From IMG/VR virus record IMGVR_UViG_3300047546_000716, positions 1-28,353 of that record: 28,353 nucleotides of DNA, one strand, 5' to 3'. The first letter of the stretch is position 1. Each line of letters starts with the position of its first letter. Below, piece by piece: positions 22,810-28,353 of this stretch. The notes beneath the pieces are model-generated. The model worked only from the letters and a program-made list of their open reading frames with translations, was not told where the DNA came from and did not search any database. Source of the stretch: a virus. The position numbers were made by a program, and so were the translations under genes.

Positions 22810-24345
22810 TTAATAGTATGCGTGGGTTTTGCGTCGGAAGAACCTCGGCTCTTCAGGCTCATCTGAATCAAGCCTAATAAAACCGCCCTGCCGAAACCGC
22901 ATCAGCGCCTGAGATGTCGTATCCACGAAGTCATCGTTCTCGCCGTTGGGGAAAGACGCCACTTCCTCGATCACCTCCCGCGCCCAGCGGGTGTCAGGTG
23001 CCCAGACCATGCCAGAGGCAAAAAGGTCCGCCACCGCGTTCAATCTTACTATCTTGTCGTTGCCACGGCTAGGGTTTGTTTCCTGAACCGGGATGCCCAT
23101 GTTGCGTAACTCTTGAATCAAGGGCGCACCAGCGGCTTTCTTTTCCACGATGAACGCATCGGGTTGCCACTCTTTGTAGTGCTTCAAGGCCACCGCCTTG
23201 AGTTCCGGGAACGCCATGCGGTCTTTGAACGCATCCAAGAGTATCACCTGCGCCTTGTCGTTTTCTTCCTCGTTGTAGAACACGCCCCACGTGGTGCACG
23301 CACTATAGTCGGCGGTGGTCTTGGCCTCGAAGGCCGTATCCCATGACTGGATGATGTACTCGCAGGTGGGGGGTTCATCCCCGGGCCAGATGCGCCAAGC
23401 GTTGCGCGAGACGATCGCCGCGTTGTTGGAGACGGGATTTTGCATGTACTGAGCGTTCCAGTACTGAGGGTCGATCGCCGCCTTCTTCTGCTTCAAGGCC
23501 TCAAGCGGCCACTGCTCTGGCCAGAGGCTTTTCTCGTTATCGGTGCCCTCGTTCAGAATGGCGGGCAACTCCACCACCTCCCACGGATCAGCGTCGGGGT
23601 TCTTGGTCTGGTAGTCCAGCAATCGCCCGGTCAAGTCCAACCTCCCCCACCGGGTCATGATGATAATGATCGCACCGCCCGGCATCAGACGTTGCAATGG
23701 GCCTGTCTGGAACCAACTCCAAGCAGTGTCGAACGCCAGACGAGAGTTGGCCTTTACATCTTGTTCGGAGTGGGGGTCATCAATGACAAAGAGGTCAGCA
23801 CCCCGGCCAGCCAGAGCACCGCCCACACCAGCCGCGTAATACTGGCCACCAGCACTGGTCGACCACTTGCCAGCCGCTTTCTGATCATCTGCCACTTGGG
23901 TTTGGGGAAAGAGGGACTTGTAATCATCGTCGTCAATCAGGTTTCGCACCCGTCGGCCAAAGTCTTCAGACAGACCTGCCGTGTGGGTACCCATGATAAT
24001 TTTCTTATTAGGGAAATTACCTAGGAAGTAGGCTGGGAACAGGTAAGACGAGAACTCGGACTTACCCATACGAGGGGCGATGTTGATGATCAGGCGCTTG
24101 AGTTCGCCGTTGATCACCCGTGTGAACAATTTGGCCAGTTTCCTGTGGTGCGGCCCCACCTTGAAGCCCGGGTACACCGCCTTGGCAAACTCGATCATGT
24201 CGGTTCTGGCGGCATTTTTCTTGACGTGCTCTTCCTTGTTGTCGAGCATCTGCAAGTATTCCAACTTCTCCTCGGCGGTCATCTTGCCGAGGTTCATGAA
24301 CAAGGCTTTGGCCTGCTCAGGCGTCAGTGGCGGGTTGGTCGTCAT
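22810..24345 (-). CDS. terL: Terminase large subunit
   Basis: This 511-residue protein is the packaging motor ATPase and nuclease. Counting from the ATG at 24345, a Walker-A-type loop is seen at residues 90-97 (APRMGKSE), Walker B at 185-191 (LFVIDDP) and a coupling motif MTRWG at about 230. The C-terminal RNase-H-like nuclease starts with the metal-binding Asp336 in IQSWDTAFE, and FIVEKKAAG and DDFVDTTSQAL supply later acidic residues. An in-frame GTG at 24363 would add six residues; neither start has a strong ribosome site. The 5' end overlaps the terS 3' end by 29 nt. It ends FFRRKTHAYY. Confidence 0.94.
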   Translation of the reverse strand: MTTNPPLTPEQAKALFMNLGKMTAEEKLEYLQMLDNKEEHVKKNAARTDMIEFAKAVYPGFKVGPHHRKLAKLFTRVINGELKRLIINIAPRMGKSEFSSYLFPAYFLGNFPNKKIIMGTHTAGLSEDFGRRVRNLIDDDDYKSLFPQTQVADDQKAAGKWSTSAGGQYYAAGVGGALAGRGADLFVIDDPHSEQDVKANSRLAFDTAWSWFQTGPLQRLMPGGAIIIIMTRWGRLDLTGRLLDYQTKNPDADPWEVVELPAILNEGTDNEKSLWPEQWPLEALKQKKAAIDPQYWNAQYMQNPVSNNAAIVSRNAWRIWPGDEPPTCEYIIQSWDTAFEAKTTADYSACTTWGVFYNEEENDKAQVILLDAFKDRMAFPELKAVALKHYKEWQPDAFIVEKKAAGAPLIQELRNMGIPVQETNPSRGNDKIVRLNAVADLFASGMVWAPDTRWAREVIEEVASFPNGENDDFVDTTSQALMRFRQGGFIRLDSDEPEEPRFFRRKTHAYY

Positions 24346-24964
24346 TGTCGTTACCAGCGACACGTTCGTCTAACGTGGCGTTATTTTGGGTTTTTTGCGA
24401 CACATCTTCCACGTCGATTGGCTCGGCATCCTCGATGTCCATGAACTTGGCCAACTTTTCTTTGAGTTTGCGGTCGATCTCGTCCTCGGTCATGTCTGTT
24501 TTTTTAATTTCCACTTTTTCCGTAAACAGCCCCACCTCGGTCACTTTGCCGAGCAAAGCGAGTGCTTTCAAGCGGATGTTGGCGTTGGTGTGCTCGCATT
24601 CTTCGAGCAGTTTGGCGACCGTGTAGCCCCTGATCTCCTTGGCCTGCTGTACAAATTCCCAGTCATAGGCGGTGAGCATCCCGACCAAGTGGCGCACAGC
24701 CTCAGGGGTTTTGAGTTGTATCAGTTTTTCTCTGGTGTCTTCGTCTGGGGTGGCGGTGGTCAAGGCGCCGAAGGCTTGACGTGCGGCTTTTTGTTCGATC
24801 TCGCTGATTATTTTTTCTGTAGGCGCGGAGCCAAGGGCTTCTAAAAAATCTGCGGTGGAGACTTGAGCGTCAATGACTTGCGCAGGGCTGTGTTTTTCCA
24901 CAGGCACTGGCCCCTCGCCAGCGGGGGCGATCTCGGGGTCAAAGTCCAACAAGTGATCAAGCAT
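24317..24964 (-). CDS. terS: Terminase small subunit (putative)
   Basis: From ATG 24964 (MLDHLLDFDPEIAPAGEGPV) the protein has 215 residues. Charged helices dominate (SEIEQKAARQAFGALTTATP, VRHLVGMLTAYDWEFVQQAK, RLKALALLGKVTEVGLFTEK), with an acidic C-terminus; helical oligomers of this kind recognise DNA and regulate TerL. Position directly upstream of terL with a 29-nt overlap supports the call. Start choice is uncertain. A TTG at 25045 would add 27 residues and follows AGGAGAAAGCAAA on this strand. However, that region overlaps the predicted plus-strand RNA, and a minus-strand promoter candidate (TTGCCT, 18 nt, TACACT) lies inside it. I therefore prefer the ATG, although it lacks a clear ribosome site. 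Confidence 0.78.
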   Translation of the reverse strand: MLDHLLDFDPEIAPAGEGPVPVEKHSPAQVIDAQVSTADFLEALGSAPTEKIISEIEQKAARQAFGALTTATPDEDTREKLIQLKTPEAVRHLVGMLTAYDWEFVQQAKEIRGYTVAKLLEECEHTNANIRLKALALLGKVTEVGLFTEKVEIKKTDMTEDEIDRKLKEKLAKFMDIEDAEPIDVEDVSQKTQNNATLDERVAGNDNDDQPATDA

Positions 24965-24985
24965 GTGCGGATTTGGGGCGGCCCC

Positions 24986-25014
24986 TTGCTTACCGAATGG
25001 CCGCAGTGTACACT
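24986..25014 (+). promoter_or_regulatory. Candidate sigma70-type promoter for the small RNA
   Basis: TTGCTT (24986-24991) and TACACT (25009-25014) are separated by 17 nt on the plus strand. The -10 lies in a perfect 12-bp palindrome (CAGTGTACACTG, 25004-25015), so the mirror-image TACACT can also serve the minus strand toward terS. The -35 is weak (3 of 6 consensus bases). Transcription would start near 25021. Confidence 0.45.
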
Positions 25015-25020
25015 GGAGTT

Positions 25021-25106
25021 GAGCAGGTAGGCAAGCAGTTGCCAATTTGCTTTCTCCTCAGGACTCCCTCCTGTTAACCCCCGGCAGAAATGTCGGGGGT
25101 TTTTTT
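25021..25106 (+). ncRNA. Predicted antisense small RNA (about 86 nt) targeting three ribosome-binding sites
   Basis: The predicted RNA has three hairpins in a row: GGCAA/TTGCC (25030-25034, 25039-25043), CAGGA/TCCTG (25059-25063, 25069-25073) and a terminator with 8-10 bp stem and U-run (25076-25106). Between the first two lies a single-stranded stretch ATTTGCTTTCTCCT (25045-25058). It is the exact reverse complement of AGGAGAAAGCAAAT, the ribosome-site leader that precedes the plus-strand genes starting at 27668, 27952 and 28041 (sites 27656-27669, 27940-27953, 28029-28042). Pairing would cover the Shine-Dalgarno and the start codon. Promoter-like boxes lie just upstream. I see no protein gene in it. 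Function and expression are inferred; the competing reading is that the minus strand carries a ribosome site for a TTG start of terS. Confidence 0.62.
25076..25106 (+). terminator. Strong rho-independent terminator on the plus strand
   Basis: AACCCCCG (25076-25083) pairs with CGGGGGTT (25094-25101), with C85-G92 and a G-U pair able to extend the stem, followed by T through 25106. The minus strand lacks a T-run after the hairpin, so it works rightward only. No plus-strand protein gene lies to its left, which makes the predicted small RNA its natural client. Confidence 0.88.
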
Positions 25107-25491
25107 GTTTGTGCCGCTTACGATTATGCGGCGTCTGTGTTGATGCGCAGAGGGGTGTAGGGGCACCCGTGGCCCAGACCGATTAAAGGCAGTCTAACAT
25201 TAGACACAAGGTTTTTCCAAATTTTTTAAAAAATTTTTGCGCGGGGTCAAAATTTTGGGTAGGGGGTAGGTTTGAGTAGTTAGGTATTACAAAAGTGCTG
25301 GGAGCGGGTGGGAAACAGTGTTCACGTCACGACAGGGTCTGGTCAGTCAAACAGGGTGGTGGGGGTATGGTGGGGTTCGGCTAGGCAAACGGCATCGCTC
25401 GGGCTACGCCTGAAAAGGGGATTCGCACAATTGAGTTTGTCGGTGGGGCAGTTCTCGCCGACATGTTCATCAACCAACAGGAGAAACTTCC
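25107..25491. other. Control region between late and plus-strand modules
   Basis: No convincing gene is seen in these 385 bases. It holds a 14-nt near-palindrome GTCTAACATTAGAC (25192-25205) and an 18-bp perfect A/T palindrome AAATTTTTTAAAAAATTT (25219-25236). Several G-rich stretches lie around 25240-25380. A hairpin GTCGGTG/CGCCGAC (25439-25445, 25456-25462) sits upstream of the ribosome site of the first plus-strand gene. A promoter for the plus-strand module must lie here or be supplied from outside, but I find no pair of boxes that stands out. An origin of replication is possible at the A/T tract. Confidence 0.5.
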
Positions 25492-25929
25492 ATGAACACC
25501 AAACTTCAAACCGCACTCACCGCCTACGCCGCCTTTCTCAAGGCAGGCACATCGTATGGCACGGCTATGCAAGCCCTTGCAAAATCCCTCGGTGGCACAC
25601 CCTGTGCCACGACCCTCGCCGAGTTCGCCAAACTACACGCCGAGAAATACAAGTGCAACTTCACATGGGACGGCAAGGGTCGTGCCGTGTTCTTTGACGG
25701 CGATGAATCCACACGGAAAAGCCGCAACAACGCCGCCCGTATGTCGTGGCAACGCAATGTGATGGTCTGGTTCACGCCTGAGAAGCCCACGGCGCCCCAA
25801 GCGCCCACGGCGAGCGCCCGAGTGAGCAAAGCACATCGTGATTTGGCGATGGATTTTCTGTCGCACTTCGAGGGCAAAGACCTCGCCGAGCAAATCCGCA
25901 AAGCCAAGGCGTTGCTCAACGCCCTGTGA
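25492..25929 (+). CDS. Unknown protein, first gene of the plus-strand module
   Basis: This 145-residue protein begins MNTKLQTALTAYAAFLKAGT. The N-terminal half is helical with some aromatic residues (KYKCNFTWDGKGRAVFFDGD), followed by a Pro/Ala-rich linker (PEKPTAPQAPTASARV) and a C-terminal helix (KDLAEQIRKAKALLNAL). No family is recognised. The ATG is preceded by CAGGAGAAA. A copy of the 19-nt palindrome (25592-25610) lies inside the gene and encodes part of GGTPCATT, so the repeat was either inserted in frame or the gene grew around it. Confidence 0.72.
   Translation: MNTKLQTALTAYAAFLKAGTSYGTAMQALAKSLGGTPCATTLAEFAKLHAEKYKCNFTWDGKGRAVFFDGDESTRKSRNNAARMSWQRNVMVWFTPEKPTAPQAPTASARVSKAHRDLAMDFLSHFEGKDLAEQIRKAKALLNAL
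25592..25610. repeat. 19-nt palindrome, copy 1 (inside a gene)
   Basis: GTGGCACACCCTGTGCCAC: 8-bp arms GTGGCACA/TGTGCCAC around a 3-nt centre. The same arms occur at 25934 and 26411; only the last base of the centre differs (C, G, A). Confidence 0.9.
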
Positions 25930-25933
25930 TTCG

Positions 25934-25952
25934 GTGGCACACCGTGTGCCAC
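25934..25952. repeat. 19-nt palindrome, copy 2 (intergenic, followed by T-run)
   Basis: GTGGCACACCGTGTGCCAC, five bases after the stop of the 145-residue gene. Six T follow at 25957-25962, so this copy could act as a rho-independent terminator on the plus strand. Confidence 0.9.
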
Positions 25953-26035
25953 GCAGTTTTTTCTCAAGCGGCACAGGCGTGGGGTCTGGCCGCTGTTCCA
26001 TCCCTTGTCCAACGCAATTTTTTCAGGAGTCCGTC

Positions 26036-26185
26036 ATGTCCAAACTCATCAACGCCTACCGCAAACTACCCTCACCCGCCAACCGCAAACGCCTGCAAGA
26101 CTACCTCAACAAACACACGATGGCAGTCTGCCTCGCCTCACCTGACGAGATCGCCTTTCTCAAAATCCACGAGTTCAAAATCTAA
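26036..26185 (+). CDS. Small unknown protein (49 residues)
   Basis: This protein begins MSKLINAYRKLPSPANRKRL. The frame is open further upstream, but the ATG at 26036 has a ribosome site (CAGGAG, 6 nt upstream) and the upstream part covers intergenic DNA with the palindrome. It is basic in the first half and ends EIAFLKIHEFKI. No family is recognised. It is followed 10 nt later by a similar small gene that also begins MSK. Confidence 0.66.
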   Translation: MSKLINAYRKLPSPANRKRLQDYLNKHTMAVCLASPDEIAFLKIHEFKI

Positions 26186-26195
26186 GGAGCCCATC

Positions 26196-26405
26196 ATGTC
26201 CAAGCGCACCCACAACCCCAACCAATCCGAACTGTTCGCCAACTACGGCGATGCCATCAAAGCCCACCACCTCAAACGCCTGCGTGAACTGCGTGACGAG
26301 TTCGCCGAGCGTGCCAAGGCAAGCGAACACAAGCGGCGGGTATTGGAAAACACCCGCAAAGCGGAAGACTGGGACGCCATCAAGCGAGCCTGCAACCGCC
26401 TCTGA
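26196..26405 (+). CDS. Small charged helical protein (69 residues)
   Basis: This protein begins MSKRTHNPNQSELFANYGDA. The rest is a highly charged helix (LRELRDEFAERAKASEHKRR) ending in DAIKRACNRL, probably a coiled coil. The ATG at 26196 has AAGGAG 7 nt upstream; the longer open frame upstream is not used. No family is recognised. The third copy of the 19-nt palindrome begins 5 nt after its stop. Confidence 0.68.
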   Translation: MSKRTHNPNQSELFANYGDAIKAHHLKRLRELRDEFAERAKASEHKRRVLENTRKAEDWDAIKRACNRL

Positions 26406-26410
26406 AACCC

Positions 26411-26429
26411 GTGGCACACCATGTGCCAC
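26411..26429. repeat. 19-nt palindrome, copy 3 (intergenic)
   Basis: GTGGCACACCATGTGCCAC, five bases after the stop of the 69-residue gene and with no T-run after it, so termination alone does not explain the family of three. Confidence 0.9.
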
Positions 26430-26460
26430 CAGAATGTCGCTAAAAGCGTGGAAAATGACA

Positions 26461-26500
26461 GTTCCGAAACTTTAATGCCCGCTTTAAAATTTTGGCGGGC
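26461..26500. repeat. 40-bp inverted repeat, left arm
   Basis: The first 18 bases (GTTCCGAAACTTTAATGC) match the reverse complement of 26729-26746 exactly, and the next 22 match 26707-26728 at 17 positions, giving 35 of 40. It forms the left edge of an AT-rich segment. Confidence 0.88.
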
Positions 26501-26507
26501 AATTTTT
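26476..26507 (+). terminator. Terminator-like hairpin inside the left inverted repeat
   Basis: TGCCCGC pairs with GCGGGCA (7 bp, AT-rich 12-nt loop) and is followed by ATTTTT. It would end plus-strand transcription of the small genes before the AT-rich segment. The right arm has lost perfect pairing of this stem. Confidence 0.7.
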
Positions 26508-26706
26508 CCTTTAAAATCAATGAGGTTACAGAATGTCTGGCAATGTATCTATCTCTAGAAATACTTTATATATTAGGAAACTAATTTTTATATGTGGGGC
26601 TGGGGTATACATACATATAAAAATAAAGATGAGTGGATATATATCTGGAAAATACATAGACCCTCTGCCACAAACCCTGCAAACCCTTGATTTCACAGGC
26701 GATAGT
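26501..26706. other. AT-rich segment between inverted repeats
   Basis: These 206 bases are very rich in A and T, unlike the surrounding genes, with stretches such as TTTATATATTAGG (26566-26578) and ACATACATATAAAAATAAA. Several -10-like sequences exist on both strands, none with a convincing -35. An 85-codon open frame (26533-26790) runs through it but looks non-coding. Confidence 0.6.
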
Positions 26707-26746
26707 GCCAGCCAAAATTTCCAAGCACGCATTAAAGTTTCGGAAC
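26707..26746. repeat. 40-bp inverted repeat, right arm
   Basis: Reverse complement of 26461-26500 with 35 of 40 identical positions; the outer 18 bases are identical. The promoter of the 260-residue gene starts a few bases outside it. Confidence 0.88.
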
Positions 26747-26751
26747 GACTC

Positions 26752-26760
26752 TGCTACAAT
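26752..26760 (+). promoter_or_regulatory. Extended -10 promoter candidate (TGCTACAAT)
   Basis: TG-C-TACAAT matches the extended -10 pattern. The -35 position 17 nt upstream (26732-26737, TTAAAG) is poor and lies inside the right inverted repeat. Transcription would start about 16 nt before the ribosome site AAGGAG of the gene at 26783. Confidence 0.5.
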
Positions 26761-26782
26761 GATAATTTTAAGGAGTTAAATT

Positions 26783-27565
26783 ATGCATGACGACATCAAA
26801 CCCGCATGGTTGACGATGAAAACCCAGCAACTGCAACGCCACTTGCGCTCGCTCAAATACCCTGACCCCTTCATCGCCAACATCATGACCCGTGTGCGGT
26901 GGCTCAAGAACGAGGCACGCAAGGCACGCATCAAGACGACTGTGACCCATCGGATGTGGGACGATGTGCTCAAGCCCGCACGCACCGAGGTCGGCAATGT
27001 CCGCACCATGAAAACGCAGACGAAGAAAGCCTTGGACGCATCGTTCATGGACGAGGGGTTGCAAGCAAAGTTTAATGCGTTAACTTTATACGAGAGCGTG
27101 CTCGTGACCATCATCGAGCGGTTACGCAAGGTGCAGATGTCGGGTGACCATTCACCCCAGAAGTTTGCCGAGGCGTTGCGTGAGGCAGGCAAGATGCCCA
27201 CCGATGGGGACGGCACGCATTGGACGCACTATGTCAAGCCCAAGGACAGGCGCATGGTGGAGATCGCCTTTGACAGGGCACCCCTGCCCAAGCGAGGCAA
27301 GACCAAGCGTCCGTTCGAGGTCAAGATTTCAGTCGAGCAACACGACAGGCTGTATGCCGACATGGTCAAGCGCATCAACAGCGAGATCGCCAACGCCGAG
27401 CAAGAGTACGAGATGGTGCGCCATCAAGAGGACAGGGACAGGCTCAACAACCTGATTCAAGACCTGCATCGGGCATCGTTTAACCTGAGTCAACTGTCCC
27501 TGACTGACCCCATCCCCGCCCATTGGCGTGGGCTGTTGAACATCGGGGTGAACTTCGATGTGTAA
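26783..27565 (+). CDS. Unknown highly charged protein (260 residues)
   Basis: This protein begins MHDDIKPAWLTMKTQQLQRH. It is rich in Lys, Arg, Glu and Asp, mainly helical, with segments VRWLKNEARKARIKTTVTHR, SEIANAEQEYEMVRHQEDRD and a final PIPAHWRGLLNIGVNFDV. I see no catalytic motif, membrane segment or known DNA-binding domain. The ATG has AAGGAG 9 nt upstream and its own promoter candidate. It is the largest gene in the plus-strand module; a nucleic-acid-related or host-takeover role is only a guess from charge. Confidence 0.78.
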   Translation: MHDDIKPAWLTMKTQQLQRHLRSLKYPDPFIANIMTRVRWLKNEARKARIKTTVTHRMWDDVLKPARTEVGNVRTMKTQTKKALDASFMDEGLQAKFNALTLYESVLVTIIERLRKVQMSGDHSPQKFAEALREAGKMPTDGDGTHWTHYVKPKDRRMVEIAFDRAPLPKRGKTKRPFEVKISVEQHDRLYADMVKRINSEIANAEQEYEMVRHQEDRDRLNNLIQDLHRASFNLSQLSLTDPIPAHWRGLLNIGVNFDV

Positions 27566-27585
27566 AGAATGTATGGGCGTGGCGA

Positions 27586-27645
27586 TGCCGACCACCACGC
27601 CGATACTGGCGAGATAGAAGTTCTATCTCACACATTTGGTCGGCA
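27586..27645 (+). promoter_or_regulatory. Candidate structured RNA leader (three-way junction)
   Basis: An outer stem of 9 bp (TGCCGACCA 27586-27594 with TGGTCGGCA 27637-27645) encloses two inner elements: CGCC/GGCG (27598-27601, 27608-27611) and a perfect palindrome GAGATAGAAGTTCTATCTC (27611-27629). It sits 10 nt before the first copy of the AAGGAGAAAGCAAATG leader. It could be a cis-regulatory leader, a processing site or a protein-binding operator (the 19-nt palindrome). Confidence 0.5.
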
Positions 27646-27654
27646 CTTGTAACG

Positions 27655-27670
27655 AAGGAGAAAGCAAATG
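27655..27670 (+). promoter_or_regulatory. Conserved ribosome-site leader, copy 1
   Basis: AAGGAGAAAGCAAATG, ending in the start codon of the 88-residue gene. 27656-27669 is perfectly complementary to 25045-25058 of the predicted small RNA. Confidence 0.85.
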
Positions 27671-27934
27671 AAAGAGATATTTTTTGTGGAAGTAACCGAC
27701 ACCTATGGGGGTGAGGCGAACTACTCATGGGTGCATCGGTTCAAGGTGCACGCAAGCACACCACGGGGTGCGATGAGAAAGGTCGAGCGACACATGCCCT
27801 ATGCGGGTGGCGTCAAGAAAGACTTGGATACAGGCGACATGCAGAGGTGGGTGTGGCGCACCGCCTGTGTTTGTGCGTTCGTCGAGGGCTACACAGACCA
27901 AGCCGAACACATGATGCGTGTTGAGTCCATTTAA
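27668..27934 (+). CDS. Small unknown protein (88 residues)
   Basis: This protein begins MKEIFFVEVTDTYGGEANYS. A beta-type N-terminal half (FFVEVTDTYGG, WVHRFKVHA) leads to STPRGAMRKVERHMPYAGG and a C-terminal part with RWVWRTACVCAFVEGYTDQA. The layout resembles small phage proteins of unknown function. It is the first of four closely spaced genes; its leader carries the strongest predicted small-RNA target together with the structured element upstream. Confidence 0.74.
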   Translation: MKEIFFVEVTDTYGGEANYSWVHRFKVHASTPRGAMRKVERHMPYAGGVKKDLDTGDMQRWVWRTACVCAFVEGYTDQAEHMMRVESI

Positions 27935-27938
27935 CCAC

Positions 27939-27954
27939 AAGGAGAAAGCAAATG
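27939..27954 (+). promoter_or_regulatory. Conserved ribosome-site leader, copy 2
   Basis: AAGGAGAAAGCAAATG, ending in the start codon of the 30-residue membrane peptide; 27940-27953 is complementary to the predicted small RNA. Confidence 0.85.
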
Positions 27955-28044
27955 GAGTATGTGATTTTTATTGTGGGCTACATCGTAGTCTTTGCGTTGG
28001 CCTCATGGGGCATGTTGAAACTAACTGAAGGAGAAAGCAAATGA
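27952..28044 (+). CDS. 30-residue single-pass membrane peptide
   Basis: The peptide MEYVIFIVGYIVVFALASWG followed by MLKLTEGESK has one hydrophobic helix (residues 3-23) and a short charged C-terminus. It has the strong conserved leader upstream and an ATGA overlap with the next gene, which supports translation despite its size. Its last codons (Glu-Gly-Glu-Ser-Lys) are encoded by the third copy of the leader. The function is unknown; such peptides can affect host membrane proteins. Confidence 0.66.
   Translation: MEYVIFIVGYIVVFALASWGMLKLTEGESK
28028..28043 (+). promoter_or_regulatory. Conserved ribosome-site leader, copy 3
   Basis: AAGGAGAAAGCAAATG, overlapping the end of the 30-residue gene and ending in the start codon at 28041; 28029-28042 is complementary to the predicted small RNA. 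The leader is kept although it also encodes amino acids. Confidence 0.85.
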
Positions 28045-28232
28045 GATTTGCGTTTGTACCAAAAGCCCAATACAAGATTGGGCAAATCATCACCGTGCAT
28101 GGCAAGCGTGCAGAGGTAGTCAGTTACGCCCACACAGGGCGCAACATCGAGGTCGCCATGCTTGAGGGCAAGCCTCAGCGTGTGGTGTGCATCTGCACAG
28201 ACAAACAACCCATCGAAGGAGTAACAAAATGA
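28041..28232 (+). CDS. Small beta-rich protein (63 residues)
   Basis: This protein begins MRFAFVPKAQYKIGQIITVH. It alternates basic residues with beta stretches (KRAEVVSYAHTGRNIEVAML, QRVVCICTDKQ), suggesting a small barrel such as an SH3-like fold, but no family is recognised. It overlaps the peptide before and the gene after by 4 nt (ATGA each), so the group is translationally coupled. Confidence 0.7.
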   Translation: MRFAFVPKAQYKIGQIITVHGKRAEVVSYAHTGRNIEVAMLEGKPQRVVCICTDKQPIEGVTK

Positions 28233-28353
28233 AGTTTGTGCATCACAACACAGGGGAGTGGGAACGCCCCAACGATTGGTCAACGGCACGGCGGTATCCA
28301 TCGGATGCCTGTGTGCGTGAATACGATTCCATCGCAGAGATTGACAACGCATT
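28229..28353 (+). CDS. Unknown protein, N-terminal part only
   Basis: This protein begins MKFVHHNTGEWERPNDWSTA and is open to the right edge (41 codons seen). Its leader (AAGGAGTAACAAAATG) is a diverged form of the conserved one and would pair only partly with the predicted small RNA. No family can be recognised from this fragment. Confidence 0.65.
   Translation, partial: MKFVHHNTGEWERPNDWSTARRYPSDACVREYDSIAEIDNA

Follow-up and report, generated by a model that had tools for sequence, protein, structure and literature searches.

The window, by which we mean the whole 28,353 nt stretch of viral DNA analysed, contains a putative terS on the minus strand and, upstream of it and on the opposite strand, a predicted small RNA gene of about 85 nt, the two genes lying back to back. 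Three short leaders predicted to be targets of the RNA lie further to the right. The features referred to below are:

24317–24964, minus strand: putative terS, its conserved start being ATG 24964 rather than TTG 25045
24986–25014, plus strand: sigma-70-type promoter of the sRNA, TTGCTT (24986–24991), a 17 nt spacer and TACACT (25009–25014)
25005–25014: palindromic −10, AGTGTACACT, a perfect palindrome by sequence
25022–25106, plus strand: predicted sRNA gene body, about 85 nt, delimited with covariance model R1
25022–25051, plus strand: hairpin 1, pairing 25022–25028 with 25045–25051, with an inner stem of 25030–25034 with 25039–25043
25045–25058, plus strand: seed, ATTTGCTTTCTCCT, from its exact complementarity to the leaders and the fold
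25052–25058, plus strand: anti-Shine-Dalgarno core UUCUCCU, unpaired in the single-sequence fold
25059–25073, plus strand: hairpin 2 (CAGGA/TCCTG), the stems of which vary yet still pair in relatives
25076–25106, plus strand: intrinsic terminator, a hairpin at 25076–25101 followed by U7
27656–27670, plus strand: predicted target, leader and start codon of a gene at 27668–27934, computed duplex −20.5 kcal/mol
27940–27954, plus strand: predicted target from the duplex computation, leader and start codon of a 30-codon gene at 27952–28044
28029–28043, plus strand: predicted target from the duplex computation, leader and start codon of a gene at 28041–28232

Many related viral contigs, representing a freshwater phage family, were recovered by scans with the terminase proteins, and after copies >93 % identical had been removed they supplied 64 non-redundant sRNA homologues upstream of terS. 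All share one layout on the strand corresponding to the plus strand of the window, in which the promoter is followed by the 5′ hairpin, GCUU(U)CUCCU, a second hairpin that differs in sequence from copy to copy, and the terminator. Model R1, which was built from phage RNAs only, finds at most one match per terminase locus, in the same place and on the same strand every time. The match at 25009–25106, the sole one in the window, scores 84.2 bits (E 1.3e-16), the window sequence itself being among the rows from which the model was built.

Both the promoter-like pair and the terminator (25076–25101 plus T7) reported in the first-pass annotation are where they had been placed. The −10 is almost invariant among the relatives and a TTG with 17 nt spacing stands ahead of it in 60 of the 64, with transcription predicted to start at about 25021–25022. 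A generic promoter scan omits this promoter because its −35 agrees with the consensus in the TTG only. The palindromic −10 points to the sRNA and terS being read from promoters placed back to back, and is probably common to the sRNA promoter and the divergent promoter into terS; on the terS strand a −10-like hexamer is found in 57/64 relatives, most of which have TTG or TGC 17–18 nt further upstream. The putative terS product matched no PHROGs or Pfam family, though the gene adjoins that for a clear terminase large subunit.

A leader copy in the opposite orientation will look antisense by definition, and hence we asked first whether the conserved stretch is merely the ribosome-binding site of a minus-strand terS starting at TTG 25045, the match to the early leaders then reflecting one common leader in opposite orientation. 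In the window, an ORF of 242 codons does open at this TTG with AGGAG 8 nt ahead, but among the relatives a start codon opening a frame of at least 90 codons follows the leader copy in only 3 of 64 and no start codon is present in 24 of 64, while the relatives have in common an M-(L/F)-(D/E)-H-L start of terS at the downstream ATG. The hairpins and terminator also covary. A TTG start of terS was thus rejected for the family, and this explanation of the conservation, which the first-pass annotation had itself raised against its own reading, fails in the relatives and is very improbable.

The 14 nt seed had been described as lying free between two hairpins. This holds for UUCUCCU (25052–25058), but not for the 5′ half of the seed (25045–25051), which in single-sequence folds pairs with the 5′ end of the RNA (25022–25028). 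Compensatory changes, proposed earlier as a check, were found in the stems. The arms of hairpin 1 pair better with each other than with arms exchanged among phages (p 0.0002), and hairpin 2 occurs with more than 40 different stems among 61 relatives, pairing being kept. The seed arm of the hairpin 1 stem hardly varies while its partner arm varies through wobble pairs, a pattern that a further pairing partner of the seed would account for. In the model-fitted alignment of 71 sequences, which is biased towards the model's own stems, both sides change in 20 of 25 pairs and the covariation score is 0.419, compared with 0.165±0.009 when shuffled and no more than 0.100 when slid; a MAFFT alignment made with no structure fitting gave a result in the same direction (0.271 versus 0.172). 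RNAalifold recovered 3 terminator pairs only from the raw MAFFT alignment because the hairpin lengths vary, and the structure for R1 was set by hand in place of this result. The inner stem of hairpin 1 partly coincides with a probable −35 for the divergent terS promoter, and its conservation is therefore not evidence for RNA structure alone.

The block adjoins the terminase genes and its −10 is palindromic, raising the question of whether it functions as DNA, in packaging (cos/pac) or as an operator, or simply terminates transcription between divergent operons, any RNA made from it having no targets. However, neither compensatory stem changes, nor an almost invariant anti-Shine-Dalgarno stretch between variable hairpins, nor the fit of seed to leader described below are expected of a DNA element, and we regard this possibility as slight in the extreme. 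Comparison of the sequences leaves us in little doubt that the locus is a real, long-maintained phage sRNA gene. It has its own promoter and intrinsic terminator and no conserved ORF, as do trans-acting anti-RBS sRNAs.

The RNA is present in 97 of the 101 in-group rows sampled from the terminase tree. The four rows lacking it, a status assigned by covariance-model matches, sit in a small nested group in which the inner forks are moderately supported, and this nesting suggests that the RNA was lost in the subclade. The nested group (L252, L263, L264 and L269–L276) has TACACC instead of TACACT as the −10, and keeps terS and the terS promoter region. In marine, cyanobacterial and lake phages with 44–54 % terminase identity, no RNA was found in the stretches read, and the leader motif was absent from the two of their genomes that were counted. 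The right-hand 4 kb of the window (24300–28353) had no blastn match among 50,697 phage records, and a scan of bacterial genomes found three distant terminase relatives only and identified no host.

AGGAGAAAGCAAAT, which occurs at 27656, 27940 and 28029, is in each case the exact reverse complement of the seed ATTTGCTTTCTCCT, confirming the 14 nt complementarity noticed in the first-pass annotation. Matches to the seed complement with three or fewer mismatches number 9 in the window versus 2.0 expected, a number reached in none of 100 shuffles, and the leader at 27656 is among the three best duplex sites in the window. When the window and the records of 44 relatives were examined together, the commonest spacer following AGGAG was AAAGCAA (75/909, the next reaching 22). 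With simple gene calling, this motif and its short form precede about 57 gene families, which include a DEAD/SNF2-type helicase, a Gp157/Mu Gam-like protein and NinX. Among AGGAG leaders, AGGAGAA(A)GC makes up 130/635 (20.5 %) on the early strand, taken as that opposite to terL, versus 16/290 (5.5 %) on the late strand (odds ratio 4.4, p 8e-10), and most of the late-strand leaders carry another continuation, one that is not complementary to the seed. The claim that several early genes carry the leader is therefore borne out well beyond the original three.

Loss of the leader in phages lacking the RNA was not seen (p 0.68). The RNA-minus subclade retains AGGAGAA(A)GC leaders on its early strand, so the motif does not vanish together with the RNA, and this counts against a connection between RNA and leaders.

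Seed and leaders were also compared phage by phage, with CUCCU held fixed and AGGAG leaders only counted, and were found to fit each other, in line with a check that the first-pass reading had proposed. On its own leaders a phage's own seed gave −10.80 kcal/mol versus −9.22±0.13 for permuted seeds, and 64 leaders were strong with the own seed versus 5 with permuted seeds. Own seeds likewise beat seeds swapped between phages (p 0.0046, 0.0014 and 0/5000); the phages are not independent data points, and after thinning to 15 dissimilar genomes the advantage was retained (p 0.018, 0.006 and 0.004). The complementarity to several ribosome-binding sites thus goes beyond the Shine-Dalgarno core, as in trans-acting anti-RBS sRNAs. 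Whether the seed has GCUUU or GCUU agreed only weakly with the length of the leader (p 0.046 by gene, 0.17 by family). The sRNA interpretation overall is thus supported by the compensatory stems, the early-gene leaders and the fit within each phage, and on these sequence comparisons the sRNA probably acts on the leaders of early genes.

No Rfam family reached its cut-off on the phage RNA. The best sub-threshold match was to RF02278, the Betaproteobacteria toxic small RNA (29.8 bits, E 1e-4 in a 121-base search, below the 50-bit gathering cut-off); none of 14 relatives exceeded this cut-off, and in 8 of the 14 the best RF02278 match falls on the sRNA element. When R1 was run on 398 genomes, the top two matches were RF02278 members, and it found 18 of the 20 RF02278 loci of one bacterial family at the right place, with promoter and 5′ part included. 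Of 61 genomes from that family, 52 carry RF02278. Its members include the double-hairpin RNAs ncS03/05/27/62 of Burkholderia cenocepacia and bdhR1, and the Burkholderia RNAs contain segments that complement ribosome-binding sites, and they influence growth, inhibiting it on overexpression (PMC5688073, PMC4603805).

In both the phage and the bacterial RNAs, a promoter −10 and a 5′ extension lie upstream of an unpaired CU-rich anti-RBS stretch, which is followed by a hairpin and then a terminator hairpin. They differ in location, RF02278 being on the bacterial chromosome and the phage RNA on a phage genome, and in the seed, which is UUGUCUCCUCC in the bacteria but UUGCUU(U)CUCCU in the phages; the form that characterizes RF02278, UGUCUCCUCC, is replaced in the phage RNAs by GCUU(U)CUCCU. 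In 15 RF02278-bearing genomes, the counts are about 920 for AGGAGACA..ATG, with which the bacterial seed is complementary, versus about 180 for AGGAGAA(N)GC..ATG; in the phages they are 9 versus 189. Hence, the bacterial and the phage seed each match the leader that predominates in the respective genomes. We consider it reasonably likely that the phage RNA is related to RF02278. Judged from the sequences, common descent is likely, and convergence on promoter, anti-Shine-Dalgarno stretch and terminator is possible.

The toxicity of RF02278 RNAs, and the ability of the UUCUCCU core to pair with many ribosome-binding sites, could also be read to mean that a genuine RNA is made which acts chiefly on host mRNAs, as a copied host growth-inhibiting RNA that damps host translation or metabolism. 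However, the phage seed differs from the one that fits the leader preferred in RF02278-bearing genomes and instead fits the phage-favoured leader, and own seeds fit the phage leaders. Host mRNAs as the main target are therefore unlikely.

The explanation that we favour as a whole, and hold to be probable, is a phage anti-RBS sRNA that represses early genes. Most likely it is related to the toxic, double-hairpin anti-RBS sRNAs of betaproteobacteria and has been re-tuned in the phage that carries it. An RNA of ~85 nt would be transcribed rightwards from the sigma-70-type promoter, placed back to back with the terS promoter. Its unpaired UUCUCCU would pair first with AGGAGAA in early mRNA leaders, and the duplex would then lengthen through GCAA(A)UG, opening the 5′ hairpin. 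With start codon and ribosome-binding site covered by the extended duplex, a set of early genes would no longer be translated, and the late genes would be spared. Repression is proposed by analogy with the relatives S17 and NcS27, which work via ribosome-binding sites (PMC11722255, PMC5688073), and any role of Hfq would likewise be conjectural. That early genes are shut off when late transcription starts is a guess; the back-to-back arrangement with the terS promoter is compatible with such timing, but a sigma-70-type promoter could also fire early. More tentatively, and with the balance slightly against it, the phage lineage may have taken over the host's global anti-RBS sRNA, which co-evolved with a dedicated early-gene leader motif to give an RNA-coded early regulon shut down via the divergent promoter beside the late operon.

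S17 of Bordetella pertussis is also a short anti-RBS sRNA; without it 92 genes rise, 70 of which have RBS-proximal complementarity, and direct repression has been demonstrated using reporters (PMC11722255). Unlike the phage RNA, S17 is host-encoded, processed by RNase E from a 190 nt form and Hfq-dependent, and it regulates the virulence mode (PMC11722255). NmsR of Neisseria similarly has unpaired CU-rich stretches complementary to the ribosome-binding sites of several genes, but is present in tandem chromosomal copies and has TCA-cycle targets (PMC5688073). Among antisense RNAs encoded by phages and having phage mRNAs as partners, sar (P22) and c4 (P1/P7) block translation initiation; these and OOP (lambda) have one described target each and no leader common to many early genes, and the phage sRNAs listed in a recent review are mostly from temperate phages or prophages, with single or host targets (PMC12197685). 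The clade described here appears to keep a dedicated sRNA, related in its form to a regulator of the host, together with a common target motif on many early genes. If this is correct, it would be an example of a phage controlling a gene set through RNA pairing, and of a seed and its leaders being re-tuned jointly.

Some relatives have an extra nested hairpin (e.g. TTGGCC...GGCCAA) inserted within hairpin 1, leaving the outer stem undisturbed (L298:6825–6965, L296:13019–13160, L230:4869–5001 and L076:1420–1550). In several relatives the interval separating the sRNA from the first early gene contains a conserved noncoding block, TATTACAAAAGTGCTGGGAGCGGGTGGGAAACAGTGTTC ... GGTGGGGGTATGGTGGGG (25285–25385 in the window), which is perhaps an origin, a pac/cos site or an early promoter region.
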